Below are positions 6,759 to 37,468 of a stretch of DNA of 64,000 bases, piece after piece. A program made the position numbers and the translations under genes. The stretch lies in contig JAJCYP010000049.1 in the NCBI GenBank assembly GCA_029262855.1, positions 62,001-126,000 on the forward strand, in the 5' to 3' direction. Under the pieces are notes generated by a model. That model was not told where the DNA came from, ran no database searches, and saw nothing but the letters and a program-made list of their open reading frames with translations. Position 1 is the first letter of the stretch. Every line of letters begins with the position of its first letter. Source of the stretch: Bacteroidota bacterium (GTDB lineage Bacteria; Bacteroidota; Rhodothermia; Rhodothermales; UBA10348).

Positions 6759-7169
6759 CTAGCCGCCCACAAACTCCTCCATCGTCACCGCCGTCTCCGG
6801 AAACGCCGCGGCAAGCTTTCGATCTCCTGTCACAAGCGTCGCTCCCAGCATCTGAGCCGTTGCCACGAACTCGCAGTCAAAGGCTGTACAGTTCGATTCA
6901 TCGGCAAGGCGAAGCACATCCGCTGCTGCCGTTGAGAACGTTCGGGCTTGCATATCCAACTCACATCGCTGGACGATTTCGATAGCCTGGTTCACGGTCA
7001 CCAGGCCCTGCCTCATGTAGGTGGCCAGCACGTTTCGTAGTTCTGGTCGCCACTGAGCGGGAGCCAGCCATTGGGAGTCCTTCCTGCGCACCGCTTCGGC
7101 AAGGGCTACTCGGTCTCTCGGAGTGCCGGCCCAGAAATAAGTCAGGACGTCCGTATCAACTACGATCAT
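6759..7169 (-). CDS. PIN-domain ribonuclease toxin (VapC-like), module 1
   Basis: 136 aa from the ATG at 7169; the in-frame ATG at 7190 would add seven non-conserved residues. The PIN acidic residues are visible: Asp in 'IVVDTDVLTYFW', Glu in 'WRPELRNVL', Asp in 'CTAFDCEFVATAQ', and a C-terminal Asp in 'LVTGDRKLAAAFP'. VapC toxins cleave specific RNAs, most often tRNA or rRNA, and are neutralised by a cognate antitoxin. The start codon overlaps the antitoxin stop by 4 bp (ATGA), so translation is coupled. All four catalytic positions are present, so the toxin is probably active. Confidence 0.9.
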   Translation of the reverse strand: MIVVDTDVLTYFWAGTPRDRVALAEAVRRKDSQWLAPAQWRPELRNVLATYMRQGLVTVNQAIEIVQRCELDMQARTFSTAAADVLRLADESNCTAFDCEFVATAQMLGATLVTGDRKLAAAFPETAVTMEEFVGG

Positions 7170-7405
7170 GGCAGTCCCTCCCTCTTCCACTTGGGATCGT
7201 AAGGTGGGAGATTCTCCAAACCAAGCTTAGCCCTGAGCGCGCGGGCCTCCTGGATAACCTCGTCGGCGCTCTGTTCCTCTGGCATCACGATCGAGCGCAG
7301 ACAGGCAATAATCTCCTTGTTCATGCTCCGCCCATTGAGCCGGGCCCGATCCTTGATTCGGTCGACAAGCTCGAGGGGGATCTGTTTGATGGTGAGGTTT
7401 GGCAT
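7166..7405 (-). CDS. Ribbon-helix-helix antitoxin (FitA/Arc-like), module 1
   Basis: 79 aa from the ATG at 7405 ('MPNLTIKQIPLELVDRIKDR'). The N-terminal half is a ribbon-helix-helix fold: a short strand 'NLTIKQIP', helix 'LVDRIKDRARLNGRSMNKEI' and a second helix. The C-terminal half ('RALRAKLGLENLPPYDPKW') would wrap around the PIN toxin encoded immediately downstream with a 4-bp overlap. An inverted repeat lies directly upstream of the start (7410-7434), which fits autoregulation by the toxin-antitoxin complex. A start at 7432 is possible but would include the palindrome in the coding sequence. Confidence 0.88.
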   Translation of the reverse strand: MPNLTIKQIPLELVDRIKDRARLNGRSMNKEIIACLRSIVMPEEQSADEVIQEARALRAKLGLENLPPYDPKWKREGLP

Positions 7406-7409
7406 AACA

Positions 7410-7434
7410 AAATGGTACCGTTGTGAAACCATTT
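7410..7434. promoter_or_regulatory. Putative operator of toxin-antitoxin module 1
   Basis: A perfect 7-bp inverted repeat, 'aaatggt' (7410-7416) and 'accattt' (7428-7434), with an 11-bp spacer, ends 5 bp upstream of the antitoxin ATG. Ribbon-helix-helix antitoxins commonly bind such palindromes over their own promoter. Assigned by position and symmetry only. Confidence 0.5.
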
Positions 7435-7685
7435 AACTACCTCGCGATGAATGATTGGTTTCAGTACCAAGAGTCGTCGACGCCCCTCAGTGTCACACGC
7501 CCTGACAACCGTGCAGATGTCTCGCGCCCGGGGGTTTCGTTTTCCCGATGACACAGCAGAGCCGTGGACCTAACCCCCACACCCCCATGCTGCGGTCATC
7601 GCGGTATGGAGGGAGGCCGTTCCGTGACATCCTGGAAGAAGCCGTCCTCTCATTACCGGAGGAACACAAATTTTACGGATGCATA

Positions 7686-7970
7686 ATGACTGCAAATAGA
7701 TTCATAACGGAACCAGTGGCAACTCTCACGCTAAAGGGCCTCCCTGATTCATTGTTGGATCGTCTCCGCGAGGCGGCCGAGGCCGAACGACGTAGCCTCA
7801 ATCAGCAAGCCATCTTCCTTCTGGAGAGTGCTCTTCCCAACCGGGCGCCTGGGGATTTTCAGTCATTCATGCAGTTATTTCAGGCAGAATGGGGCGTGGG
7901 AGACCTCACTGATTCCGATTTCGAAGGCCTTCGTGTGAGGGATGGATATCGGGACGGATCGGAGCCATGA
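7686..7970 (+). CDS. Ribbon-helix-helix antitoxin, module 2
   Basis: 94 aa from the ATG at 7686. The frame is open to 7548, but the residues before Met47 of that frame do not resemble an antitoxin. A GTG at 7716, giving 'VATLTLKGLPDSLLDRLREA', is an alternative that would start right at the ribbon. The core 'ATLTLKGLPDSLLDRLREAA' plus 'RRSLNQQAIFLLESAL' is the FitA/Arc-type ribbon-helix-helix. The acidic C-terminal tail contains 'DLTDSDFEGLRVRDGY'. The stop overlaps the following PIN toxin start by 4 bp. It faces away from module 1, with a gap of about 280 bp between the two antitoxin starts. Confidence 0.87.
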   Translation: MTANRFITEPVATLTLKGLPDSLLDRLREAAEAERRSLNQQAIFLLESALPNRAPGDFQSFMQLFQAEWGVGDLTDSDFEGLRVRDGYRDGSEP

Positions 7971-8380
7971 TCCGATACCTGCTGGATACGGACATCCTCT
8001 CGGAGCCTGCGAAGCGTCAGCCCGATTCGTTCGTTCTCGGACGACTCCAGCGAGAAGCATGGAGATGTGTTACCTCTGCGGTGGTCTGGATGGAAATGTC
8101 CTACGGGGTTCTCCGAATGCCTGCGGGGACGCGGCGAGACCGATTGCGTGCCTATGTAACTGGAGTAGGTCGCCAGTTCCCCATCGTTTCATTCGACTCT
8201 GAGGCGGCGCTCTGGCTCGCCACCGCCAGAGCCAGGCAGAATGATCGCGGAATCACCCGTCCGCAGTACGATGGCATCATCGCCGCGACCGCGGCTTCGC
8301 GTAGGCTCGTGTTGGTCACCCGCAATGTGAGCGACTTCGCCGATTTTCCGGGGCTGACGGTGGAGAGCTGGCACGGGTAA
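7967..8380 (+). CDS. PIN-domain ribonuclease toxin (VapC/FitB-like), module 2
   Basis: 137 aa. It contains the PIN signature 'YLLDTDILSEPAKR' (first Asp), 'VVWMEMSYGVLR' (Glu), 'ITRPQYDGIIAATAA' (Asp) and 'LVTRNVSDFADF', where Asn takes the usual place of the fourth acidic residue, as in many FitB-type toxins. 'LLDTDILSE' together with the 'YGVLRMP' helix is very typical of this subfamily. Translation is coupled to the antitoxin through the ATGA overlap at 7967-7970. The reaction is endonucleolytic RNA cleavage; the target cannot be deduced. Confidence 0.92.
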   Translation: MIRYLLDTDILSEPAKRQPDSFVLGRLQREAWRCVTSAVVWMEMSYGVLRMPAGTRRDRLRAYVTGVGRQFPIVSFDSEAALWLATARARQNDRGITRPQYDGIIAATAASRRLVLVTRNVSDFADFPGLTVESWHG

Positions 8381-13271: not shown

Positions 13272-13565
13272 ATGGCAAGAGACAATCAAGTTTGGTTCGG
13301 TATGCGCCTCACTCCCGAAGAAAAGTCTGGCATCAAGAGGCTGGCCCGTCTGTGGGGGATGACCGCCAAGGCTGCCATTCTCGAGCTCGTAGGGCGTGAA
13401 CTGGAAGCGCAGGACAGTCAGAAGGGGAACTTCCTGGATGGCATCGAGGACCTGATCGGTTCGGTCGAGGGTCCCGGCGATTTGTCAACCAACCCCAAGT
13501 ACATGGAGGGCTATGGCGAGGACACGATTCCTATTAGACACCGGCCCTCTGGTGGCTCTGCTTGA
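13272..13565 (+). CDS. Putative antitoxin (ribbon-helix-helix type), module 3
   Basis: 97 aa. The N-terminal part 'QVWFGMRLTPEEKSGIKRLA' followed by 'LWGMTAKAAILELVGRELEA' reads as a ribbon strand plus two helices, compatible with a ribbon-helix-helix DNA-binding domain. The acidic, Gly-rich remainder ('FLDGIEDLIGSVEGPGD') would contact the toxin. It overlaps the PIN gene by 53 bp, much more than the 4 bp of modules 1 and 2. The family is not one I can name; the antitoxin role is inferred from size, order, overlap with a PIN toxin and the upstream palindrome. Confidence 0.75.
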   Translation: MARDNQVWFGMRLTPEEKSGIKRLARLWGMTAKAAILELVGRELEAQDSQKGNFLDGIEDLIGSVEGPGDLSTNPKYMEGYGEDTIPIRHRPSGGSA

Positions 13566-13929
13566 CACGCGGGACCAGTGGAGTCGATGGTCCCGTGAGG
13601 CCGTCTCGACGCTTCCAGCACCTTTCGAGACTTGCGAGTCTGTAATCTCTGAGGCCCACTTCCTTCTGAGTGCCAGGACCCACGATGGAGGTTGGCGGCT
13701 GAACCAGTTGATTGAGAGGGGCCGCCTGAAAATCTCTTTCTCGTTCGCTGAGCACCAGACTGAGGTGTTCGCACTCATGAAGCGATTTGAGGAAGTCCCA
13801 ATGTCGTTCGCGGACGCGTGCTTGGTCAGGATGGCCGAGCAGGCCCCCTCACGCATCATCACCACCGACGGTGGATTCGAGCGATACCGAACTTCTCATC
13901 GCAAGCGGCTGTCACTGGTGATGCCCTGA
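13513..13929 (+). CDS. PIN-domain ribonuclease toxin, module 3
   Basis: 138 aa. Catalytic positions are visible: Asp in 'RFLLDTGPLVALLD', Glu in 'CESVISEAHFLL', Asp in 'PMSFADACLVRMAE' and Asp in 'IITTDGGFERYR'. The 'DTGPLVAL' opening and 'SFADACLVRMAE' box place it in the PIN subgroup distinct from the FitB-like module 2. The start lies inside the antitoxin frame (53-bp overlap), so the two reading frames share sequence and translation is probably coupled. All active-site residues are present. Confidence 0.9.
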   Translation: MARTRFLLDTGPLVALLDTRDQWSRWSREAVSTLPAPFETCESVISEAHFLLSARTHDGGWRLNQLIERGRLKISFSFAEHQTEVFALMKRFEEVPMSFADACLVRMAEQAPSRIITTDGGFERYRTSHRKRLSLVMP

Positions 13930-25445: not shown

Positions 25446-27236
25446 CTACCTCCTCTCGAAGTAGAAGAGCCCCCCCGACACCCCTCCGACGAACAGATCT
25501 TCGTCCCCGTCTCCATCCATGTCGGCGAACTCGGGGGTTGCCAGCACGGGCGTCGGAATGTCCAGCGCGCCCCGAGCCTCAAAGACCGGTTGGCGGACAG
25601 ACCCGGTGTTCTCGAACATCAGTATCCCGTCGAGCTCACTGCCAACGAACAGGTCGAGGTCCCCATCGGAGTCCCAATCCGAAAACACGGGGACGCTTCG
25701 GCGACCGACGTCGATGTCCAGGTACTCGTCGGAGACCAGCTCAAAATTCGGAGCAGTGGCCGACCCAACATTGCGGTAGAAGTTCAGCGTGCCTGATGCC
25801 TCACCAATGAACAGGTCCAGGTCACCGTCGGCATCGATATCCGCCAGCGTCGGCGCACTGTTGGAGCCACGCGTCAACTGCAGGTATTTCGACTTCACAT
25901 GGGTGTAGCCCTCACCGTCGTTGCGGAAATAGGCCACGTCGCGGTTCCACTTCCCGACCAGGAGATCAACGTCTCCATCCCCGTCCAAATCACCGGGTGC
26001 GACGGTCTGGTGGAACGTGTCTGCCAGCGCAATGAAATCTCGACCGACCATGGACGGACTCGCGACCGAGCCCACGTTCTCCCACAGGTAGACCCGCCCG
26101 GCACTGTTGTCATCGGGGAGGATCTTGTTGGCAACCGTCAGGTCAAGGTCGCCGTCGCCATCGATGTCAAATACCCGAGGCACGCTATCCGAGCCCACGT
26201 CCAGCATGGGAATAAGACGTGACGTCCGATTCTCAAAGACCCCGTTCTCGGTCTGTTCGAGAAAATACAGGTTCTCGACGGTCGATGAGTTGGCATTGAA
26301 GGCACCACCGAGGACGCCAACGGCCATGTCCATGTCTCCGTCCCCATCGATGTCTCCGGTTGAGGGCGCATTGTACCCGCTGGTCTCAAGCGCTTCATTG
26401 AGCGGGAACGGTGTCGGCTCTCCACGCATGGAGGGCTGGGTGCGGCTGCCGCGATTACGAAGGAGCAAAACGCCGGCCTCGAAAAAATCACCCCAGAAAA
26501 GGTCTTCGTCCCCGTCGCCATCCATGTCGCCGAAGGTCATGGTGTTGGCGCCGTGGCGGGACTGACGCTCACCGATGATTTCGATGTCCTCAAACCGGTC
26601 GGTGACGAGCTGGAATTGCGGCACCATGTTGTCGTCATAGCCCACGGCCTCGAACCGCTTGACCATACCGGTGACAAGCCCGACAAAGAGATCCAGGTTG
26701 CCGTCCCCATCGATGTCGGTCAGGTTCGGGATATTCTGCCGATCCGAGAAGAGCGGCTTCCCATCGGCCATCATCAGGGTATCCACGGCCAACTCGAACT
26801 GCGGAGTCTCGGCCGAACCCTCGTTCCGGAAGTACCGGATATGGCTGAACCGCTGCTCCGCCATCAAGTCGTGATCGCCGTCTTTGTCGACGTCCGCAAA
26901 CCGGTACCACTCGCCGATGTCCAGGTCCTGGTAGTGATCGGTTCTCCAGATGTACTCGCCGCCGGTCCGCTCGAAAAAGCGCAGCATCCCGGACTCTTCC
27001 TGAATGAAGAGATCCAGGTCTCCGTCTGCGTCGATGTCCACATACTGGGGACGCGGCACGTTGAAACCGCCCAGAAAGGGCTGCGACAGCTCCTGGCCGT
27101 CCAGTGAAACGACTGGAAACGGTCCCACAACACGGGCAAAGTCGGAAGCCTGCTCCGAGTCTGCGGGCGTCAGGACGGATGTCCCCGCGGCACAGCCGGC
27201 CAGGACAAACAGGGAGGCAATCGCCAATCTCATCAT
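25446..27236 (-). CDS. FG-GAP/VCBS repeat lipoprotein with ten Ca-binding loops
   Basis: 596 aa. A lipoprotein signal ('LAIASLFVLAGC', Cys15) precedes a beta-propeller-like body carrying ten acidic loops of DxDxDGDxD type, for example 'DIDADGDLDLFIQ', 'DVDKDGDHDLM', 'DIDGDGNLDLFVG', 'DMDGDGDEDLFWG' and 'DLDGDGDVDLLVG'. Such integrin-alpha-like repeats bind Ca2+ and are common in surface proteins of marine FCB bacteria; the role is usually structural or adhesive. Start at the first of two Met codons, overlapping the stop of the YVTN propeller gene upstream by 4 bp, so the two lipoproteins are co-translated and probably form a surface pair. No enzyme domain is seen. Confidence 0.9.
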   Translation of the reverse strand: MMRLAIASLFVLAGCAAGTSVLTPADSEQASDFARVVGPFPVVSLDGQELSQPFLGGFNVPRPQYVDIDADGDLDLFIQEESGMLRFFERTGGEYIWRTDHYQDLDIGEWYRFADVDKDGDHDLMAEQRFSHIRYFRNEGSAETPQFELAVDTLMMADGKPLFSDRQNIPNLTDIDGDGNLDLFVGLVTGMVKRFEAVGYDDNMVPQFQLVTDRFEDIEIIGERQSRHGANTMTFGDMDGDGDEDLFWGDFFEAGVLLLRNRGSRTQPSMRGEPTPFPLNEALETSGYNAPSTGDIDGDGDMDMAVGVLGGAFNANSSTVENLYFLEQTENGVFENRTSRLIPMLDVGSDSVPRVFDIDGDGDLDLTVANKILPDDNSAGRVYLWENVGSVASPSMVGRDFIALADTFHQTVAPGDLDGDGDVDLLVGKWNRDVAYFRNDGEGYTHVKSKYLQLTRGSNSAPTLADIDADGDLDLFIGEASGTLNFYRNVGSATAPNFELVSDEYLDIDVGRRSVPVFSDWDSDGDLDLFVGSELDGILMFENTGSVRQPVFEARGALDIPTPVLATPEFADMDGDGDEDLFVGGVSGGLFYFERR

Positions 27237-28309
27237 CGGGTCACGCCCCGGCTGCCGACTCCACTGGGCATTGCGCCCACCTCGATCACCTTGGCAATCT
27301 CATTCGTTGCGGTGTCGATCACCACGAGGTGCCCGTTGTGGGACATCCCGGCCATGTTCATTCCGCCCGACCCAGTGTTCTGCTGCGAGATGTAGACATA
27401 GCGGCCGTCCGCCGATATCGCGCTGCCATGCGGCTGGGCCATTCCCTCGCCGGCAATCGTTGCCGATATCTGGCCGTTGCGGATATCGACAACCGTCACC
27501 GTGTTCGCGCCCTTGTTGCCCAAATAGGCGTGATACCCATCGGCTCCAAAAATGGGGTGCCAGGGCCGGGATCCGACCTCGATTTCGCTCCGAACCGAGA
27601 CCTCGGGCAGCGCCGAGAGGTCGAGGAAGAACAGTTTGTTGGTCAACTCTCCGCCTACGATGGCCGTGTTTCCGTCGGGCGAAATGGCGAACTGCACGAG
27701 CGTATGGATGTCGCCGTCAAACTCGTGAAAGGTCCCATCGCCAGAAGACTGATCCAGCACGATCATCCGGTTCTCCGCGAGGGATGCCGAAAAGACGAAG
27801 TTGCCATCCGGCGTCACAGCCAGGGCATGCGGACGTGGGAAGAACACATCCACCTCATCCATATCCATCGAACCGCGCGTGATCACGCCAATGCTCTGGG
27901 GCGGGTTGACGGCGCTCATGGACCGACCCACGTAGAGCACGTCGTCTGTGTAGTTCAGGGCCATCATCCCGGGGACCTGAAACTCGGCGGAGCCCACCAC
28001 CTCGTTGGCCCGATTGAACTTTAGCACGCGATTCGCCCCGATCATCGACAGGTACCAGTGGGATCCGTCAGGCTCGACCACCACGTGGTGCGGCTTGGCG
28101 TTCTCGGGATAGCCCATCGTCTTGAGGTCGACGGTGGCAACTACCTCGTTGAGGGAAGCGTCGATGACAGACACGGTGGCCTCGCCCTGATTGCAGACGT
28201 AGATGTAGTCCGGGCCCGCGTCGGCGGTCATCTGGGAGGCACTGGCGCAGCCGCTCAGGACGGCGACAGTCAACAGCAGGAAGCTGGCAAAGAAAATTTT
28301 CATCGGCAT
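27233..28309 (-). CDS. YVTN-type beta-propeller lipoprotein
   Basis: 358 aa. The signal 'FFASFLLLTVAVLSGC' ends at a lipidated Cys. The rest is a seven-bladed YVTN/surface-antigen-type propeller with blades such as 'YIYVCNQGEATVSVIDASLN', 'PHHVVVEPDGSHWYLSMIGA', 'PHALAVTPDGNFVFSASLAE' and 'GYHAYLGNKGANTVTVVDIR'. A Met/His-rich loop near the C-terminus, 'SGGMNMAGMSHNGHLVV', is unusual for these propellers and looks like a possible copper or other soft-metal site. It is translationally coupled to the FG-GAP lipoprotein that follows. Function unknown; YVTN proteins often act as periplasmic scaffolds or metal-reductase accessory proteins. Confidence 0.88.
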   Translation of the reverse strand: MPMKIFFASFLLLTVAVLSGCASASQMTADAGPDYIYVCNQGEATVSVIDASLNEVVATVDLKTMGYPENAKPHHVVVEPDGSHWYLSMIGANRVLKFNRANEVVGSAEFQVPGMMALNYTDDVLYVGRSMSAVNPPQSIGVITRGSMDMDEVDVFFPRPHALAVTPDGNFVFSASLAENRMIVLDQSSGDGTFHEFDGDIHTLVQFAISPDGNTAIVGGELTNKLFFLDLSALPEVSVRSEIEVGSRPWHPIFGADGYHAYLGNKGANTVTVVDIRNGQISATIAGEGMAQPHGSAISADGRYVYISQQNTGSGGMNMAGMSHNGHLVVIDTATNEIAKVIEVGAMPSGVGSRGVTR

Positions 28310-28390: not shown

Positions 28391-29866
28391 TTAAGGAAGA
28401 GCCGGGGCGGGGTATGTAGGGGAATCCCGTTTTGCCGCGTTGAGAAGCTCTCGTGCCCCGGCGGCGGCACCGGTCGCGATACCAAACATGAACATCGGAT
28501 CGTTGATGTAGAAGGGGTTCGAGGTGATGGCCGAGATGACGAGCGATATCAGAATACCGGCCACGCCGAGGTTGGTCAGACGGAGAAAGAGGGCCCCTTC
28601 TGCCCGGTAGCCCTTGATGGCATGCCAGATGGCGGAACCCCAGAAGTAGAGCACCATGCCCAGGCCCCAGATGCCGAATTTGTACCAGAGCGCCACGTAC
28701 CCGTTGTGGAGGAAAGTGGTCACGTGGTGGAAGGGTGGCAGAAACGTCAGATCCCAGAAACTGAAGGGGACCCCCATTCCGTAGCCCAGAACGGGGTTTT
28801 CCCAGACCTTCTCCATCACGACCGCCGTCTCTCGGAAACGGTTGATGAGCGAAATGTCGGTCGTGGCCGCACTTCCAATCGACAGCACGCGGTCCAATAG
28901 ACCGGTCGCGACCAGTATGAACACGTCCCCCAGCACCAGATAGCCCAGCACCACGATACCGGCAACCGAGGCCGCCCCAATCCCGAACAGGCGAACACGT
29001 TGGCGGCCGGGCATAACGAGGAGCAGCACTATGCACGCCCCCGCGAAGGCGACCCAGTATCCCCGGCTCTGGGAGATGATCATACCGGCAAAGAACACGG
29101 CAAAGACCGATCCTGCCAACCGGGCTGAACGCAATTTGGGCGCGTGAAGGAGAAACACCAGGCTCACGAACAGGGGCACCATGAGGATGCTGGTGTTCGT
29201 CACGGCCCGGCCGCGGGTCACCTGCCACGCGTAGGCGGCATCCAACAGGATCTCCTGGTAGTTGAGCACGTTCCGCGTAAAAACCCAGAGGGCGAGAATC
29301 AGGACGGCGGCCATCACGGCGTGAAGGCCGTACCGGTGACGGCTCACCACCTCTCGCACCGGGAAGTAGAGCGCAAAGAACGAGAGGCTCAGCCATTCTC
29401 CGATGTAGAAGCGCAGATCTCCCCCGAAGAGCAGTGTCAGACCCACAGAGGCCGTCGCCAGTACCAGAAATACGGCCAGGACACGTGACTCTCTCGTCTC
29501 GAAAATCGGTTCGCGATAGAGAAATATCCGTGTCAGAAACCAGTGTCCGAGAAACGCCAGGTAGTACAGTCCGTAGATGACCTCGGTCGGCTGCGTGCCT
29601 TCCTCGAAGCCGGCAATCAGAGCAAATCCAAGAATCAGCGTACACAGATTCAGCACCGGGTGCTGGAAGAGCCAGCAGGCTCCGACGGCGGCGATCACAA
29701 AGCCCAGAAAAAGCAGCAACAGCGTCACGGACTTCCAGACCGCAAACAACACGATCACTAGGCCCATACCCAATGCCAGTTGAAGGACCAACAGACCCAG
29801 CGCGCGAAAGACGTCCGGCTGCAGCGGATCGCGGATCGCTTGGTATAAGGCTCTCGTGGCAGTCAA
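28391..29866 (-). CDS. O-antigen ligase / Wzy-like polymerase family membrane protein
   Basis: About 491 aa if the TTG at 29866 is used. The frame continues to 30073, but that part is antisense to the divergent gene; an ATG at 29767 would cut into the first helix. About eleven to twelve transmembrane helices are visible, with the Wzy_C-type loop containing 'INRFRETAVVMEKVWENPVL', 'GYGMGVPFSFWD' and 'TFLHNGYVALWYKFGIWGLG' (conserved His in 'LHNGY', typical of O-antigen ligases). The enzyme would join or polymerise surface polysaccharide at the outer face of the inner membrane. Its neighbours, two methyltransferases and a T9SS cargo, fit a surface-glycan region. Confidence 0.84.
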   Translation of the reverse strand: MTATRALYQAIRDPLQPDVFRALGLLVLQLALGMGLVIVLFAVWKSVTLLLLFLGFVIAAVGACWLFQHPVLNLCTLILGFALIAGFEEGTQPTEVIYGLYYLAFLGHWFLTRIFLYREPIFETRESRVLAVFLVLATASVGLTLLFGGDLRFYIGEWLSLSFFALYFPVREVVSRHRYGLHAVMAAVLILALWVFTRNVLNYQEILLDAAYAWQVTRGRAVTNTSILMVPLFVSLVFLLHAPKLRSARLAGSVFAVFFAGMIISQSRGYWVAFAGACIVLLLVMPGRQRVRLFGIGAASVAGIVVLGYLVLGDVFILVATGLLDRVLSIGSAATTDISLINRFRETAVVMEKVWENPVLGYGMGVPFSFWDLTFLPPFHHVTTFLHNGYVALWYKFGIWGLGMVLYFWGSAIWHAIKGYRAEGALFLRLTNLGVAGILISLVISAITSNPFYINDPMFMFGIATGAAAGARELLNAAKRDSPTYPAPALP

Positions 29867-29879
29867 TGGAGGCGCGTAA

Positions 29880-32306
29880 ATGAGGGGTCTTGGCAGACGG
29901 TCCGTTCCAGCAGCCCGCAAGGTAAAGCCGACGGCCCAAATCGTTCCGGCCGCCGCAGTGCTTCTGCTGGTTTCCGGGTTGCTTTGGGGTTTTCCGTCAC
30001 CCGACAGGATCGCCGCAGCCACCTTGCCGGCCCCGGCCCCGCCCTCCAATCTCGTCGCCGTTCCCGCCAGCACGGGGATCTATCTCCAGTGGGATGCCAG
30101 CCCAACGCCTGCCACGGACATTTCCGAATACCGACTCGAGCGATTTCGGGAGGGCGACTCGGCCGCGGTCATCATCCAACGGCTTCCTGCCGGGCGCCTG
30201 TCCCACTTCGATTCGACCGGACTGGGCGGCATTCCTTATCGCTACCGGGTCCGCGCTCGTGACTGGTTTCTGAACGACAGTCCCTGGTCGAACCCGGTTG
30301 TCGCCACCTACAGGGACGCTGTCCTCCCCAGTCGTCCGGACAGCATATCTGTTACCGGAAATCCCCAGGGGCTGTTTGTAGATTGGGCGCCAGTGCGCGA
30401 AGAGGACCTGGCGGGCTACCGGGTTTATCGCGCCACTCAGGGATCGGCCTGGCAACTGCTTGCGGAACCCGCCCAGTCCGAGTATCTCGACCGCTCCGCG
30501 GAGACGGCCATACCGTATCTCTACGCGTCCACAGCCCTGGATTTTTCGGGGAACGAAAGCGTGCGTTCCGATACGGCGCGCGGCGTCATTCTGGATGGCG
30601 TCCCACCCGCCGCCGTCCCCGTATTCACGGCGGTCGGTGAACCCACAGGAATCAGGCTTCGGTGGCAGCCACCGGCCGATCCAGATCTCGCCGGGTTTCG
30701 CATCGCCCGGAGCACCGACCCGGTTTTCAGCGACCCGCTCGTGCAACTGGACGCGACCGCCACTGAGTTCGTGGACACCACGGCTCTCGAGCGGCACTTT
30801 TACATCTACCGCATCGCAGCGATCGATCGGAGTGGCAACGCGGGCCAGGTGGTCTTTGCCCAGGCCATTCGGCCTGATGCTTCCGCACCCGCTGCGCCGG
30901 CCGGTCTGCAGGCGGAACGATCCGATGCGGCGCTGAGGCTTTGGTGGGCGCCGAGCCCCTCGCCGGACCTGGCCTACTACCGGCTGTACCGCGAGAGTCT
31001 GATCGATACGACCCGCACCGTAACCCGCCTGGACGCGTCCATCACCGAGTACCGTACGTTCCCGTTCGGTCCCGGCCTGCCACGGCGCTACTATGTCACG
31101 GCGGTTGACAGTGCGGGCAATGAGAGCGACCGCCTGGCCACCGTCGAGACCGCCCTTGTGCCAGACTCATTTTCGCGCAGATGGCCTGATGTCGATAGTC
31201 GCTTCCGCCTGGTGGCCCTCCCAGGCGCAGCTCCGGGCGTATGGGAGTTTCCCGGCGAGAGAGGCGTCGACTGGGAAGCCCTCGACCCGCTGACGCTGGG
31301 GCCAGCCTCCCGGTCTTCCCAACCCGGAATGCCGGTCTGGGCGTGGGCTGGGCAGGTGCCCAGCGTGGCTTTGGAGGTGTCGCCGCAGGTCGTGGCCGGC
31401 GGACTGGAATTCGTCCAGACCTTGCCCGTGCGGCGAGGCTGGAATGCGCTTTCGAGTCCATTCGACATTCCGCTGGACTGGAATCTCGTGCTGGCCTGGA
31501 ACGAGGTCTCCGGCCCACTTCTCCACTACACGGGTCGTTGGGAAGAAGGTCACCTTCTGGACCCCTACGAAGGTGCCTACTGGTACAACCGGTCCGACCA
31601 GACCAGCCTCGACCTTCCGTATGCCGTGGAGCGGGTCCCGGGAGACACGCTGGTGGCCGCGCCGCCCAGAGTCGTGATCCGGGCTCGACCGGCGTCGGGT
31701 GGCGCGAGCCAGTTCGTGGAGTTGGTCCGAGGTCCTGACCTGCCGCTGCCACCTACCCCTGCCGCCCTTTCGGTACTCACATTGGAAGGCGACACGGGCG
31801 AGTCCCTCCTGAGGAAATCCGTGGCGCAGCTGCCAGGATCGCGCGCACGGCTTCGCTGGAATGGGAACGAGGAAATCATCAGAGTGGCCGTGGTGGAGCA
31901 GCCCACGGGTCTCTCCGTGCGCATCACTGATGAACTGGGAACGCCTCATCTGCTGACCGACAGCGGGACCCTGCTGAATGTTATGAGCGGCACGTTCCTG
32001 ATGGAGGTCGTGCAGTCCGGAGAAGCGCCGACTCCGCCCCAGCGGTTTGGGCTCTCCCATGTCTTCCCACGACCGGCAGCAACACAGGCGACAATGGTCT
32101 ATCAGGTCTCCGCTCCGGGCCCGATCACCCTGGAGGTCTTCGACTTGTTGGGTCGACGCGTGGCCACGCTTGAGAACCGTCAGCGGACGCCGGGACAGTA
32201 TCAGGTGCGATGGGAGCCTTCTTCAAGACTCCCGAATGGCACCTATCTGATCAGTCTGGTCGGACCGGAAGGGCGAAGTACGCAGGCGCTCCAGGTGGTG
32301 CGTTAG
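29880..32306 (+). CDS. Fibronectin type III-repeat surface protein with T9SS-type C-terminus
   Basis: 808 aa. A signal/anchor segment 'PAAAVLLLVSGLLWGF' lies at about 23-40. Four fibronectin type III domains follow at about 54-146, 150-240, 245-335 and 338-430, each opening with a 'PxxPxxLxV' strand and containing 'YRVYRA' or 'YRLYRES' type strands. A unique beta-rich region (430-725) precedes a C-terminal Por sorting domain ('GPITLEVFDLLGRRVATLEN', 'NGTYLISL', 'STQALQVVR'). It should be secreted by the type IX system and attached to the cell surface. Its start is only 13 bp from the likely start of the divergent O-antigen ligase gene. The last codons contain the 33-bp sequence that is repeated at 33371. 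Confidence 0.9.
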   Translation: MRGLGRRSVPAARKVKPTAQIVPAAAVLLLVSGLLWGFPSPDRIAAATLPAPAPPSNLVAVPASTGIYLQWDASPTPATDISEYRLERFREGDSAAVIIQRLPAGRLSHFDSTGLGGIPYRYRVRARDWFLNDSPWSNPVVATYRDAVLPSRPDSISVTGNPQGLFVDWAPVREEDLAGYRVYRATQGSAWQLLAEPAQSEYLDRSAETAIPYLYASTALDFSGNESVRSDTARGVILDGVPPAAVPVFTAVGEPTGIRLRWQPPADPDLAGFRIARSTDPVFSDPLVQLDATATEFVDTTALERHFYIYRIAAIDRSGNAGQVVFAQAIRPDASAPAAPAGLQAERSDAALRLWWAPSPSPDLAYYRLYRESLIDTTRTVTRLDASITEYRTFPFGPGLPRRYYVTAVDSAGNESDRLATVETALVPDSFSRRWPDVDSRFRLVALPGAAPGVWEFPGERGVDWEALDPLTLGPASRSSQPGMPVWAWAGQVPSVALEVSPQVVAGGLEFVQTLPVRRGWNALSSPFDIPLDWNLVLAWNEVSGPLLHYTGRWEEGHLLDPYEGAYWYNRSDQTSLDLPYAVERVPGDTLVAAPPRVVIRARPASGGASQFVELVRGPDLPLPPTPAALSVLTLEGDTGESLLRKSVAQLPGSRARLRWNGNEEIIRVAVVEQPTGLSVRITDELGTPHLLTDSGTLLNVMSGTFLMEVVQSGEAPTPPQRFGLSHVFPRPAATQATMVYQVSAPGPITLEVFDLLGRRVATLENRQRTPGQYQVRWEPSSRLPNGTYLISLVGPEGRSTQALQVVR

Positions 32307-32307
32307 A
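32275..32307. repeat. 33-bp perfect direct repeat, copy 1
   Basis: Begins 'gaagtacgcaggcgctcc' and ends 'ggtggtgcgttaga'; it comprises the last codons and stop of the fibronectin-domain gene. Identical to 33371-33403. The two copies flank the class I methyltransferase gene and a methyltransferase remnant, indicating duplication during insertion of this segment. Confidence 0.9.
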
Positions 32308-32444
32308 TGATCTGCGCATGCGTCGAAATCTCGGGCGACCGGAGTCTTGAGTCGCTGCTCACCAGCAATGGCGTCAAGTCGTTTGATCTGGCGTCGATTG
32401 ATGTAGCTTCTCAAAAACAACCAGAAACTGGTCTTCCGCGGTAA
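32307..32444 (+). pseudogene. FkbM methyltransferase remnant (45-codon frame)
   Basis: An ATG directly after the stop of the fibronectin gene opens a 45-codon frame. Its first 33 residues ('ICACVEISGDRSLESLLTS' onward) match residues 84-116 of the FkbM-like gene at 33463. At DNA level 32308-32406 aligns without gaps to 33713-33811, with 11 differences in 99 positions by my count. After that the frame runs into unrelated sequence and stops at 32442. It lacks the N-terminal and C-terminal thirds of a methyltransferase and cannot be an enzyme. It is therefore a diverged fragment of a second FkbM-type gene that once stood here. Confidence 0.8.
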
Positions 32445-33333
32445 TCCAGATGGGAGGGGTATCGGCGAGGTCGGGACTGGACGCAACGTCCACTCCGCCC
32501 CACCCCTTTCTTCTCAATCCGCGGAAAGCTGAAGGAGCAAATCTGTAGAGCAGGTTCTTAATCGTTTCGGGGAGGCGCTGTCGCAGCCCGCGAACGGAGG
32601 CGTGCGAGAAATATCGAATTTCCTGGACTGTCAATCCGCATTGGGCTGCCACGGCACGGCTCCATCTGGGGCTCAGGAAGCTCAGGTGCTCCGGAAGTGC
32701 GCAATACCAATATCTCCCACCCATGAGTCTCCAGGAGCGCGAGTCTAGATTTCCGGTGCTCAGTACAAGTTTTCCGCCCGGCTTGAGCAGCTCGGATAGT
32801 CGGGCAAGGAAGCTCACTGGGGCAGCCAAATGCTCGATGATATCGAATGCCACTATGGCATCGTAGCACGTGCCCCCTGAAATCTCGTCAGCATCGGACC
32901 CCACCATAGTAATCCCAGCTTCCTGGGCGACACGGGCGGCTTCAGAGTTAAGTTCGATACCGAACAACTGCCAGGCTTCTGAGTCCCGATTGACAAAATT
33001 GAGGAACGCGCCGTCAAAGCAACCGACATCCAGGAGGCTTCCTCTGCTTCTACCGTCCAAGAGGATTCGGCGTGCTGCTACCCAATCGGGCCGGGATTCT
33101 GGGTCGTAGGTCCAAACCGCGAACTCAGCTGCCTGGTAGTACTCATTGAGCTCATGCTTCGGCAATTGCGGCCACTTGAAGCCGACGTAGCAGGTTTGGC
33201 ACCGAAACAGGCTGCCTCCCGGCAAGGGCGACTCCAAGGGTCGGCCAGCAAAGACGTAGCCATGGGGGATGTCTCCGATGAGTTCAGTGCTATCCGAATG
33301 ACAGGACGGACAGGTTTGTGTGGCGGTTGTCAT
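32374..33333 (-). CDS. Zinc-ribbon class I SAM-dependent methyltransferase, chimeric C-terminus
   Basis: 319 aa from the ATG at 33333 ('MTTATQTCPSCHS'). The frame is open to 33432, but that extension is only the antisense of the 33-bp repeat. An N-terminal zinc ribbon (Cys8-x2-Cys11 and 'FRCQTC') leads into a Rossmann fold with SAM motif I 'SLLDVGCFDGAFL', 'YDAIVAFDIIEHLAAP' and 'LKPGGKLVLSTGN'. Enzymes with this layout methylate nucleotide-sugar or glycan substrates. The last dozen residues ('KLHQSTPDQTT') are encoded by the antisense of the FkbM remnant, so the original C-terminus was replaced. GC is low (26/60 at 32941-33000), pointing to transfer. Confidence 0.86.
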   Translation of the reverse strand: MTTATQTCPSCHSDSTELIGDIPHGYVFAGRPLESPLPGGSLFRCQTCYVGFKWPQLPKHELNEYYQAAEFAVWTYDPESRPDWVAARRILLDGRSRGSLLDVGCFDGAFLNFVNRDSEAWQLFGIELNSEAARVAQEAGITMVGSDADEISGGTCYDAIVAFDIIEHLAAPVSFLARLSELLKPGGKLVLSTGNLDSRSWRLMGGRYWYCALPEHLSFLSPRWSRAVAAQCGLTVQEIRYFSHASVRGLRQRLPETIKNLLYRFAPSAFRGLRRKGWGGVDVASSPDLADTPPIWITAEDQFLVVFEKLHQSTPDQTT

Positions 33334-33370
33334 TCTTTGGGGTGCCTTTGGCTTCTTGTGGGAGAAGGGT

Positions 33371-33403
33371 GAAGTACGCAGGCGCTCCAGGTGGTGCGTT
33401 AGA
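33371..33403. repeat. 33-bp perfect direct repeat, copy 2
   Basis: Second exact copy of 32275-32307, lying in the 129-bp gap between the class I methyltransferase start and the FkbM gene. Here it is non-coding on the plus strand and directly followed by unrelated sequence. This copy marks the right edge of the inserted or duplicated segment. Confidence 0.9.
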
Positions 33404-33462
33404 CCGGCATGCCCTTCTTGCTCGACCGCCATATCTTCTGATCGACTAATTACTCATGATAC

Positions 33463-34359
33463 ATGACCGACTTCGCTGTTGCCGCACGGAATGTCCATTC
33501 GCAGTACGGGGAGGATGGGGTTCTGGAATGGGTCCTGGAGCGAATTGGCTTACAGGATGGCTATTTTGTGGAGTTTGGGGCCTGGGACGGGATTCACCTC
33601 AGCAACTGCCGACACCTCTATGAGAACGGCTGGTCAGGTTGTCTTATCGAGGGCGACCCAACTCGTTTCAAAGACCTTGAGACGACCTACCAGGGCGAAG
33701 AACGCGCAGACCTGATCTGCGCATACGTCGAAATCTCGGGCTCGAGGAGTCTTGACTCGCTGCTCACCAGCAGTGGCGTCAAGTCGGTCGATCTGGTGTC
33801 GATTGATATAGATGGCGACGACTACGCGATTTGGCGAAGCCTGGAGTTGTACCGCCCGAAAGTGGTGATCATCGAGTACAATCCGACAATCCCCTTCGAC
33901 ACGAGGTATGTGAACCCCACTGGCTTGAACCGCGGGAACTCTGCACTCTCGCTCGCTGAGCTTGCCACCGAAAAGGGGTACGACCTGGTCGCGGGCACCA
34001 GGGCAAACCTCGTCTTTGTTGACAAGGACATTAGACCACCCACGCTCGAGCCGGTTACGCTTCAGCTGCTGAAGGATGTTGTTGGAGGCGGCCTCAGGTT
34101 CTTCTTCGGCGTGGATGGGACCTTCCTTCGTGAGGCGGGACATACCATGCGAGAGACCGAAGTCTATCGCGTGCCGTGGACAGACTACATGGCCGCGCAA
34201 CCTGTGCCAAGGTTTCTTCGCCGATTTGATTCCCGGTCAGGGTTGAAGAAGACCATAGGTCTTGTTCTGCTACTCTTGACGAGGCCGGTCGCTGCCCTTC
34301 GAATGGTGCTTGATGAGCGTGTTAATCCACGACCTCCGGAGAAGCAGATCTATGATTGA
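33463..34359 (+). CDS. FkbM-family SAM-dependent methyltransferase
   Basis: 298 aa. The FkbM-type core is visible: 'SQYGEDGVLEWVLER', 'GYFVEFGAWDGIHLSNC' (SAM-binding), 'GWSGCLIEGDPTRF' (acidic end of strand 2) and 'VDLVSIDIDGDDYAIW'. Members methylate hydroxyl groups of sugars or polyketides; near an O-antigen ligase-like gene, sugar methylation of a surface glycan is the natural guess. An Arg-rich C-terminus with a hydrophobic stretch ('KTIGLVLLLLTRPVAALRM') might bind the membrane. GC is lower than in the flanks (32/60 at 33541-33600). A fragment of a closely related gene lies 1.2 kb upstream (32307-32444). Confidence 0.88.
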   Translation: MTDFAVAARNVHSQYGEDGVLEWVLERIGLQDGYFVEFGAWDGIHLSNCRHLYENGWSGCLIEGDPTRFKDLETTYQGEERADLICAYVEISGSRSLDSLLTSSGVKSVDLVSIDIDGDDYAIWRSLELYRPKVVIIEYNPTIPFDTRYVNPTGLNRGNSALSLAELATEKGYDLVAGTRANLVFVDKDIRPPTLEPVTLQLLKDVVGGGLRFFFGVDGTFLREAGHTMRETEVYRVPWTDYMAAQPVPRFLRRFDSRSGLKKTIGLVLLLLTRPVAALRMVLDERVNPRPPEKQIYD

Positions 34360-34376: not shown

Positions 34377-36365
34377 CTATCGCTCGGAGGTGCTGTTTGC
34401 CTCCTCCGGGCGGGTCAGGTGCCAGAAGTAACCCATCAGGGCGGCGAACACGGCGGCTGCCAGCCACACGCCCGCACTGCCGGCCCAATCACTTCCGATG
34501 CCTTTCGGGGCCACCTGCGTGTAGGCGGCCCACCCGGCAATCACAACCATGAACAGGCCCTCGCCTCCCACGAGTCCAGATCCGAAGAGAATGCCCCGCT
34601 CGCGACGATCATCCAGTTCCTCCGGCGTGCGGGAGCGCTTCTCGACAAACATGCGCATCAGCCCGCCGAGGTAGATGGGCGTCATCGTTGCAACCGGGAG
34701 ATAGACCCCTACGGCGAAGGCCAGGCTCGGAATACCCAGCAGTTCAATGATGATGGCCAGCCCGGCACCGATGCCCACGAGACCCCACGGGAGAGACTGA
34801 TCCAGAACACCGTCGACCACCACCTTCATGAGCGTGGCCTGCGGAGCCGGGATTTCGGTATTCCCGAAGCCCCAGGTGCTGCCGATCAACTGGAACGTCC
34901 AGACAATTACGCCGACGCAGGCAATTACGCCGATCATTTCGCCCATCTGTTGCCTGCGCGGTGTGGCGCCCAGCAGGAATCCGGACTTCAGGTCCTGACT
35001 CGTGTCGCCGGCGATGGACGCCGCAATGGCCACGACCGTACCAATGGTGAGCGCGGCGGCCTTTCCGGCCAGGTCTGTCCATCCAAGCAGCAGGAACAGC
35101 CCGGCCGCACCCAGAAGCGTGGCAATCGTCATTCCACTGGTAGGATTGGACGTCACGCCTACCAATCCGACAATCCGGCTGGAGACGGTCACAAAGAAAA
35201 ACGCGAAGACGATGACGAGTACCGCGGCGGCGGCCCGGAATCCCATCGACTCGATATTGAAAGCCTGCGGCACCAGCGCCAGGATCAGGAAGATCCCCAC
35301 GGCGCCAATCCCGACCCACTTGAGGGGAAGGTCCTCTTCGGTACGCTTGACCGCGACGGGAACGGCGGTCTTCAGACGCGATCCTAACTGGCTCCCGCCG
35401 ACCCGGAAACTCTCGATCATTGTGGGCACGGACTTGGCAAGCGTCATCAAGCCGGCGGCGGCCACCGCGCCCGCGCCGATGTATCTCACGTAGCGGGTCC
35501 AGATCTGCGACGCGCTCATGTCGGCAATCAAGTTGACGGCCTCCGGAAACACGGGAGCCGTCAGGCCTTCGCCAATCAGCGCGATGGTCGGGATAATCAC
35601 GACCCAGGAGAGGAGCCCTCCGCCGACCATGACGGCCGCAGTCTTGGGCCCCAGGATGTAGCCCACGCCGAGCAGGGCGGATGACATCTCCACGCCCACC
35701 TCGCCCTTCTTCAGGAACGGCAAATGGAGTACGACCTCGTCCGGGAGCGCCTTCAGGAAACCGAACAGGGCCTTGAAGGCCGCGCCCACGCCGAGTCCCA
35801 AGAACACGTTTCGAGCCTTGCCGCTGCTTGTCTCTGCGGCCACAAGAACCTCGGCGCACGCCGTCCCCTCGGGATAGGGCAGTTTGCCGTGCTCTCCCTT
35901 GATGAGGAAGCGCCTCAGCGGGATCATGAACAGGACGCCGAGGAGGCCGCCGCACAGGGCAAGCAGCGTCATCTGCCCCCAGGCCGGGTTGAACCCCCAC
36001 ATGTAGAGGGCCGGAAGGGTGAAGATGATGCCGCTGGCCAATGAGCTGGATGCCGAGCCCACGGTCTGGGACATGTTCGCCTCCAGCAGGGTCGACTTGA
36101 CCCCCATGGTCTCAAGCGAACGAAAGAGCGCGATGGACATAACGGCCACCGGAATCGACGTGGAGATCGTCAACCCGACGCGAAGTCCCAGGTAGGCGTT
36201 GGCGGCCCCGAACAGCACACCGAAGATCACACCCGCCACGATGGCCTTGAGCGTGAATTCGGCCGTGGAGACTTCGGCAGGCACGAAGGGCGGATACGCC
36301 TTGCCGGCGGGGATCTCGGTATAGGCCAACGGATCGAGTCCCTGGCGCATTTGTAGTTCAGACAT
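34377..36365 (-). CDS. OPT-family oligopeptide transporter
   Basis: 662 aa from the ATG at 36365 ('MSELQMRQGLDPLAY'), normal for bacterial OPT proteins. About fifteen transmembrane helices are seen. Family-typical stretches are 'VIFGVLFGAANAYLGLRVGL', 'SIPVAVMSIALFRSLE' and 'GEHGKLPYPEGTACAEVLVA', the last being the strongly conserved 'LPYPEGTACAEVL' box, plus 'GDTSQDLKSGFLLGATPRRQ'. OPT proteins take up tetra- to hexapeptides or metal chelates, driven by protons, in the inner membrane. It is convergent with the FkbM gene (17-bp gap) and divergent from tdh. No regulatory site is obvious. Confidence 0.93.
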   Translation of the reverse strand: MSELQMRQGLDPLAYTEIPAGKAYPPFVPAEVSTAEFTLKAIVAGVIFGVLFGAANAYLGLRVGLTISTSIPVAVMSIALFRSLETMGVKSTLLEANMSQTVGSASSSLASGIIFTLPALYMWGFNPAWGQMTLLALCGGLLGVLFMIPLRRFLIKGEHGKLPYPEGTACAEVLVAAETSSGKARNVFLGLGVGAAFKALFGFLKALPDEVVLHLPFLKKGEVGVEMSSALLGVGYILGPKTAAVMVGGGLLSWVVIIPTIALIGEGLTAPVFPEAVNLIADMSASQIWTRYVRYIGAGAVAAAGLMTLAKSVPTMIESFRVGGSQLGSRLKTAVPVAVKRTEEDLPLKWVGIGAVGIFLILALVPQAFNIESMGFRAAAAVLVIVFAFFFVTVSSRIVGLVGVTSNPTSGMTIATLLGAAGLFLLLGWTDLAGKAAALTIGTVVAIAASIAGDTSQDLKSGFLLGATPRRQQMGEMIGVIACVGVIVWTFQLIGSTWGFGNTEIPAPQATLMKVVVDGVLDQSLPWGLVGIGAGLAIIIELLGIPSLAFAVGVYLPVATMTPIYLGGLMRMFVEKRSRTPEELDDRRERGILFGSGLVGGEGLFMVVIAGWAAYTQVAPKGIGSDWAGSAGVWLAAAVFAALMGYFWHLTRPEEANSTSER

Positions 36366-36473
36366 GGCGCTTGCGGTGAGTGGCACGAGAATACGGGCCG
36401 CCGGGCCGCACCGACAAGTACTCAATTCGCAGTTGCTTGACGAGTGAGCTATCTGACGCTCCTATCTTTTGAT

Positions 36474-36520: not shown

Positions 36521-37468
36521 ATGATTCTCGTAACAGGCGCCGCGGGGCAATTGGGCAGTGATCTCGTTGACGGGCTCGTCGCCCGCCACGGAGGTTCTGC
36601 GGTTCTTGCCACCGACTTGCGCTGCTGCGACCAGTTGAAGCGCTCCGGTGCCGATACGGCATCGCTGGATGTCACCGATGCGGACGCCGTTCGAATGATG
36701 ATCCAGGATGGCGTCTTCGAGCAGGTCTATCACCTGGCCGGCATCCTGTCCGCGCGAGGCGAGAAACAGCCGGATCTCTGCTGGACCGTCAATGTCGACG
36801 GCCTGAAGAACGTGCTCAATGCAGTGCGGGATACCAGGACCCGCGTGTTCTGGCCCAGTTCGATTGCCGTTTTCGGTCCGGCCACCCCGCGTCACCGGAC
36901 ACCGCAGGTCACCGTCAAGGATCCCAGCACCATGTATGGGGTGGCGAAGGCTTCCGGAGAACTCCTCTGTGACTACCACGCCAGCAAGTTTGGGGTGGAC
37001 GTGAGGAGCATTCGATACCCCGGCATCATCAGCTCGAGCGTCCCTCCCGGCGGTGGCACCACGGATTTCGCTGTAGACATGTTTGTCGAGGCCGTCAAGA
37101 GCGGGCAATACACCTGTTTTGTGCGCGAGACGACTCGCCTCCCGATGATGTACGGGCCTGACGCGGTCAAGGCTGCCCTGGACCTGATGGATGCCTCGCC
37201 GTCACGAATAACCATCCGGACCAGCTACAATCTGACAGCGTTCTCCTTTTCGGCCGAAGAACTCGCAGAGGCCATCGCCTCTCGCGTGCCCGGCTTCGTG
37301 TGCGAGTACGAGCCCGATTTCCGCCAGGCCATCGCCGACACCTGGCCGGAGGTCATCGACGATTCCAAGGCCCGCGAAGACTGGGGCTGGCATCCGGAGT
37401 ACGACATCACAGCCATGGTCGATGACATGTTGAGCCACCTCGTAGACCCTGCCTCCAGCCATGTTTGA
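36521..37468 (+). CDS. tdh: L-threonine 3-dehydrogenase, SDR type
   Basis: 315 aa. The extended short-chain dehydrogenase fold starts with the NAD-binding '[15 protein letters not shown]' and has the catalytic '[13 protein letters not shown]' (Tyr-x3-Lys), '[12 protein letters not shown]' and '[17 protein letters not shown]', which match SDR-type threonine dehydrogenases. The product oxidises L-threonine to 2-amino-3-ketobutyrate. The next gene, overlapping by 8 bp, encodes the ligase that splits this with CoA, so the pair turns threonine into glycine and acetyl-CoA. The context makes the assignment firm. The start is the first ATG, 5 bp after 'ggaag'-like purines. Confidence 0.93.

Follow-up and report, generated by a model that had tools for sequence, protein, structure and literature searches.

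A probable recombination scar around a methyltransferase gene at a variable, glycan-associated locus in a Rhodothermales genome

The window analysed here, a stretch of 64,000 nucleotides with a mean GC content of 62.1%, lies inside a 180,743-base contig of a draft genome from the order Rhodothermales (4.74 Mb in 146 contigs; estimated contamination, 4.29%). Near its middle, a gene for a fibronectin type III protein is followed by a class I S-adenosylmethionine (SAM) methyltransferase gene (MT) on the opposite strand and then by an FkbM-type methyltransferase gene. The genes and features of this region are as follows.

27233-28309, minus strand: lactonase-like gene.
28391-30073, minus strand: O-antigen ligase gene (Wzy_C; Pfam PF04932, E = 6.7e-14).
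29880-32306, plus strand: fibronectin type III protein (PF00041) with a T9SS type A sorting domain (TIGR04183, above cut-off).
32268-32307, plus strand: repeat copy 1, the native one, comprising the coding 3′ end of the fibronectin gene with its stop codon and one further base.
32308-32406, plus strand: FkbM remnant (codons 85-116), 11/99 differences from the intact gene, joined flush to repeat copy 1.
32374-32403, minus strand: foreign C-terminus of MT (HQSTPDQTT) and its new stop, antisense FkbM sequence.
32374-33333, minus strand: coding sequence of MT (Methyltransf_23; PF13489, E = 3.2e-19).
32407-33363, minus strand: putative inserted or relocated MT segment, comprising the whole reading frame without its stop plus 30 bp upstream, with bounds taken from the repeats and the homologue ends.
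33364-33403, plus strand: repeat copy 2, not fibronectin-coding, 59 bp before the FkbM start.
33463-34359, plus strand: intact FkbM-type methyltransferase gene (PF05050, E = 5.5e-5, just above cut-off).
34377-36425, minus strand: OPT transporter gene.
36521-37468, plus strand: epimerase gene.

A promoter and terminator scan gave no signal exceeding that of shuffled sequence. Elsewhere, the window carries three PIN-domain genes (at 6759-8380 and 13513-13929), one of which is paired with a FitA-like antitoxin gene (7548-7970); these are candidates for toxin-antitoxin systems of the VapBC/FitAB-like type.

MT is flanked by collinear repeats of 40 and 99 bp. A first-pass annotation of this DNA had reported that 32275-32307 and 33371-33403 are identical over 33 bp, which we confirmed; allowing one mismatch lengthens the repeat to 40 bp (32268-32307 versus 33364-33403, 39/40 matching), and its sequence is no more than the 3′ terminus of the fibronectin gene. 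When the window was simulated 30 times with a first-order Markov model, the longest exact repeat measured 15 to 18 bp, compared with the 33 bp observed. On both sides of MT, the repeat leads into an FkbM piece in the same order and orientation, with a gap between the two pieces of 309 bp in the right copy (the 59-bp spacer and the first ~83 FkbM codons) and of 0 bp in the left copy. Collinear repeats of this kind are far beyond chance.

The remnant had been described as a gap-free match to 33713-33811 with 11 differences in 99 positions, and exactly this number was found (88/99 matching). Its derivation from FkbM also holds at the protein level, where the FkbM frame gives ICACVEISGDRSLESLLTSNGVKSFDLASIDV versus ICAYVEISGSRSLDSLLTSSGVKSVDLVSIDI; most of the 11 differences change the residue. 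With an orthologue from a related genome (G002) as outgroup, five of the differences fall on the remnant side and three on the intact side, three being assignable to neither, and the distances to this orthologue are about equal (remnant, 34/99; intact FkbM, 32/99). That both copies carry changes of their own is compatible with a diverged donor allele. The remnant is also more diverged from its counterpart than the repeat is (11/99 versus 1/40), which would fit such a donor, although the two divergences do not differ significantly (binomial p = 0.054; Fisher p = 0.18). A 45-codon reading frame at 32307-32444, in frame with the remnant, begins with the ATG that abuts the stop of the fibronectin gene (TAGATG). 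It holds just a domain fragment, and we put it down to chance.

The stop codon of MT, at 32374, falls within the FkbM remnant, as the first-pass annotation had stated. That annotation had further proposed that the last dozen residues of MT are antisense FkbM sequence; the antisense origin stands, and the length is corrected to nine residues plus the stop. In the suggested comparison with MT proteins elsewhere, seven homologues from the order end at the junction, within about two residues of the end of the conserved part of the window protein (VVFEKL), and the tail HQSTPDQTT is found in the window protein only. At the DNA level, the best homologue, in genome G013, reads AAG AAG CTG TAA where the window reads GAG AAG CTA CAT, placing the junction at the stop codon; accordingly, the G013 protein ends in KKL and the window protein continues from EKL into the tail. 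MT has lost its stop exactly at the junction and reads on into the FkbM remnant. The join between MT and the remnant shares at most three bases (TAG).

In a structure model of MT (mean pLDDT, 85), confidence persists up to the last strand (residues 302-309) and drops to 60 in the last block, which contains the tail. Invariant alignment columns are retained in the window protein. Because the model is confident to the last strand and poor in the tail block, the enzyme looks intact and the tail is probably a neutral appendage.

To place the locus in context, we compared it with related genomes; the comparison base is one draft genome and one informative congener (G001). In G001, the gene order is lactonase, MT homologue, ligase, two glycosyltransferase-type genes, fibronectin gene, another FkbM-domain gene (opposite strand), and epimerase. 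The interval between its fibronectin and epimerase genes thus lacks MT, the window-type FkbM gene, and the OPT transporter and holds a different FkbM-domain gene. Since the content of this slot differs between the two congeners, the fibronectin-epimerase interval is variable, as is usual for glycan-associated genes. The OPT transporter (34377-36425) has its nearest copies in G027 (66%), G009, and G005 and may be a separate acquisition. G001 also carries a gene of the STELLO glycosyltransferase family (PF03385; L049:11581-12558) between ligase and fibronectin gene, which is absent from the window interval.

MT homologues have a different usual home. In four other genomes of the order (G032, G045, G054, and G075), the MT homologue lies directly after the ligase gene on the same strand, with an overlap of 4 bp in G045 and G075; in G001 the ligase-MT neighbourhood is present in convergent orientation. 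As the homologue adjoins the ligase in all five genomes, the ligase neighbourhood is the usual home of MT and its window position is derived, with MT moved or imported to its present place. We looked for a leftover piece of MT beside the window ligase and found none. The pairing of ligase and class I methyltransferase recurs in several families of the order (L076:7164-9622, L077:5459-7836, L075:1901-4251, and L054:8587-11020), and the methyltransferase of this pair is a candidate modifier of the ligated glycan. Given that its relatives adjoin an O-antigen ligase, the window MT probably remains an enzyme acting on a surface glycan, here without its usual operon partner.

G002 resembles the window in that its ligase adjoins the lactonase gene, and MT was not found in this genome (88% complete). 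None of the relatives was found to carry FkbM immediately downstream of the fibronectin gene. In G002 the contig breaks off within the fibronectin gene, the 3′ part of which is indistinguishable among many matches to T9SS sorting domains, and the FkbM relative in this genome sits elsewhere, on contig C400.

The first-pass annotation had singled out the MT segment as lower in GC. It is not lower than FkbM (MT, 56.9%; FkbM, 56.3%): both lie under the window mean, and the GC and GC3 of both genes are lower than those of the flanking genes. Sequence identities of the ligase track relatedness (G002, 76%; G001, 55%; G013, 42%). For MT, by contrast, G013 is the nearest (55%), ahead of the congener G001 (45%). 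This discordance suggests that MT was imported. The MT tree likewise places the window with G013, although a grouping of window and G001 was not rejected (AU test, p = 0.19).

The intact FkbM gene reached a PF05050 score of 23.8 bits against a cut-off of 22.7, in a partial match covering profile positions 100-156. Because its TIGR01444 score is below cut-off, it is best classed, on profile scores, as a peripheral member of the FkbM methyltransferase family. Of the 245 class genomes searched, only G002 yielded a close relative (E = 1e-60; 73% identical), and this restricted distribution indicates that FkbM was itself probably acquired. Searches of phages, plasmids, and viral contigs returned only distant matches to FkbM, and MT had no match in viral contigs, so a viral or plasmid origin was set aside. 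In G002, the FkbM orthologue (L050:7110-8039) lies ~3 kb from a gene (L050:10970-12349) with weak matches to Toprim- and AAA-type domains; this setting resembles a mobile element and might explain the spread of the rare FkbM.

Parts of the history proposed earlier agree with these observations. The fibronectin gene was most likely once followed immediately by an FkbM gene, because the duplicated pieces are collinear and repeat copy 2 still lies 59 bp before FkbM. The placement of MT between these two genes is likewise supported, as is its chimeric C-terminus, with the seven homologues ending at the junction. We consider it probable (roughly 0.7) that the locus is the scar of a past rearrangement, in which homology-anchored illegitimate recombination or the crossover of a circle added MT, together with a deletion. 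The ancestor would have had the arrangement fibronectin gene, 59 bp, FkbM. The incoming DNA would have carried MT beside a piece of the same fibronectin-end/FkbM region, and that piece could have served as a homologous anchor on one side, with an illegitimate join on the other; alternatively, a circle could have integrated by a single crossover. Either route would leave MT in front of the resident FkbM gene with the anchor duplicated, from the fibronectin end to FkbM codon 116, and a deletion before or after integration would have removed the 5′ portion of FkbM on the left side. A single rare event, not recurrent or site-specific exchange, is most likely. The unequal divergence of remnant and repeat fits a single event slightly less well unless the donor had diverged, and no intermediate or donor arrangement was found among the relatives compared.

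The same collinear layout could be produced with no incoming anchor, by tandem duplication of the fibronectin-end/FkbM segment within the genome (replication slippage or template switching). MT would then have inserted into the duplicate, and the FkbM copy on the left would have decayed. The lack of a statistically significant difference in divergence between repeat and remnant would suit this history. However, separate events would be needed for the duplication, the insertion of MT, and the deletions on both sides of the remnant, and MT would have had to land exactly at the edge of the duplication. We regard this course of events as unlikely.

A further concern is that reads of different strains in the metagenome were joined at the 33- to 40-bp repeat during assembly or binning. 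Short repeats can mislead assemblers, and the genome is in 146 contigs with 4.29% estimated contamination. The junction between remnant and MT, however, lies in unique sequence, where no repeat could lead an assembler astray; even a join made at the repeat would presuppose a real junction between MT and the repeat; and the contig is 180,743 bp long. An artefact is very improbable on these grounds.

The first-pass annotation had favoured a cassette-exchange site. This goes beyond the evidence, because no reuse of the repeat, no inverted repeats, and, among the 28 window genes scanned, no recombinase were found. The genome search that it proposed for additional 33-bp copies returned only the two at this locus, even at up to 3 mismatches, and Pfam matches to the 28 window genes included neither a recombinase nor a transposase. 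For an integron or invertible-cassette type of site-specific system, a nearby recombinase or sites elsewhere would be expected; neither appeared among the 28 window genes or in the genome-wide search for the 33-mer. Transposition fits poorly as well: inverted repeats are absent, the segment consists of one methyltransferase gene, and the duplicated edge is composite. That the fibronectin 3′ end is a reusable edge for swapping methyltransferase cassettes is the least credible reading, for although the slot holds another FkbM-domain gene in G001, the edge occurs in only two copies genome-wide, the window lacks inverted repeats and, among its 28 scanned genes, a recombinase, the G001 fibronectin 3′ end has no DNA match to the edge, and only one congener is comparable. 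It is similarly very doubtful that fibronectin/T9SS 3′ ends serve repeatedly in the genus as anchors for swapping glycan-modifying methyltransferase genes; if they did, slot content would differ between strains and alter surface glycan or protein modification.

Homology-facilitated illegitimate recombination has been described in several bacteria, the work cited in one report being in Streptococcus, Acinetobacter, and Pseudomonas (PMC3240628). As in the process outlined there, homologous anchoring at one end combined with an illegitimate join at the other would account for a non-homologous gene beside a duplicated edge, and the non-homologous insert at this locus is indeed bordered by a repeated homologous stretch. 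Unlike the cases in that report, which come from transformation or conjugation experiments, the present one is read from one sequence and needs an extra 309-bp deletion. The same mechanism has been proposed for displacement scars of T6SS effector-immunity modules in Vibrio cholerae (PMC5361080), where, as here, a new module sits beside a homologous anchor and older genes or fragments are shifted downstream. In contrast to that system, the locus contains no toxin or immunity genes, shows a single event and no array, and takes its anchor from the 3′ end of an adjacent, unrelated gene.

The gene content of O-antigen and capsule loci varies between relatives. The region studied here is similar in that ligase, glycosyltransferase, and methyltransferase genes vary between relatives and GC is below that of the genome; it differs in being small, without a full polysaccharide cluster or a transposase remnant. 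Transposase remnants occur in cps loci (PMC6332807). A search of the literature on T9SS loci in Rhodothermales and on O-antigen gene remnants found nothing on such an arrangement. As a recombination scar at a variable, glycan-associated locus, it is of a kind already known.

Taken together, the locus is a well-preserved case of gene shuffling, of an ordinary sort, in a region of a bacterial genome concerned with surface glycans. Being a single event seen in one draft genome, it exemplifies a process that is already known and leaves the view of that process unchanged. It offers a base-by-base record of a single gene entering such a region without a visible mobile element, and it shows how a protein can gain a new C-terminus from the antisense strand of a gene fragment.
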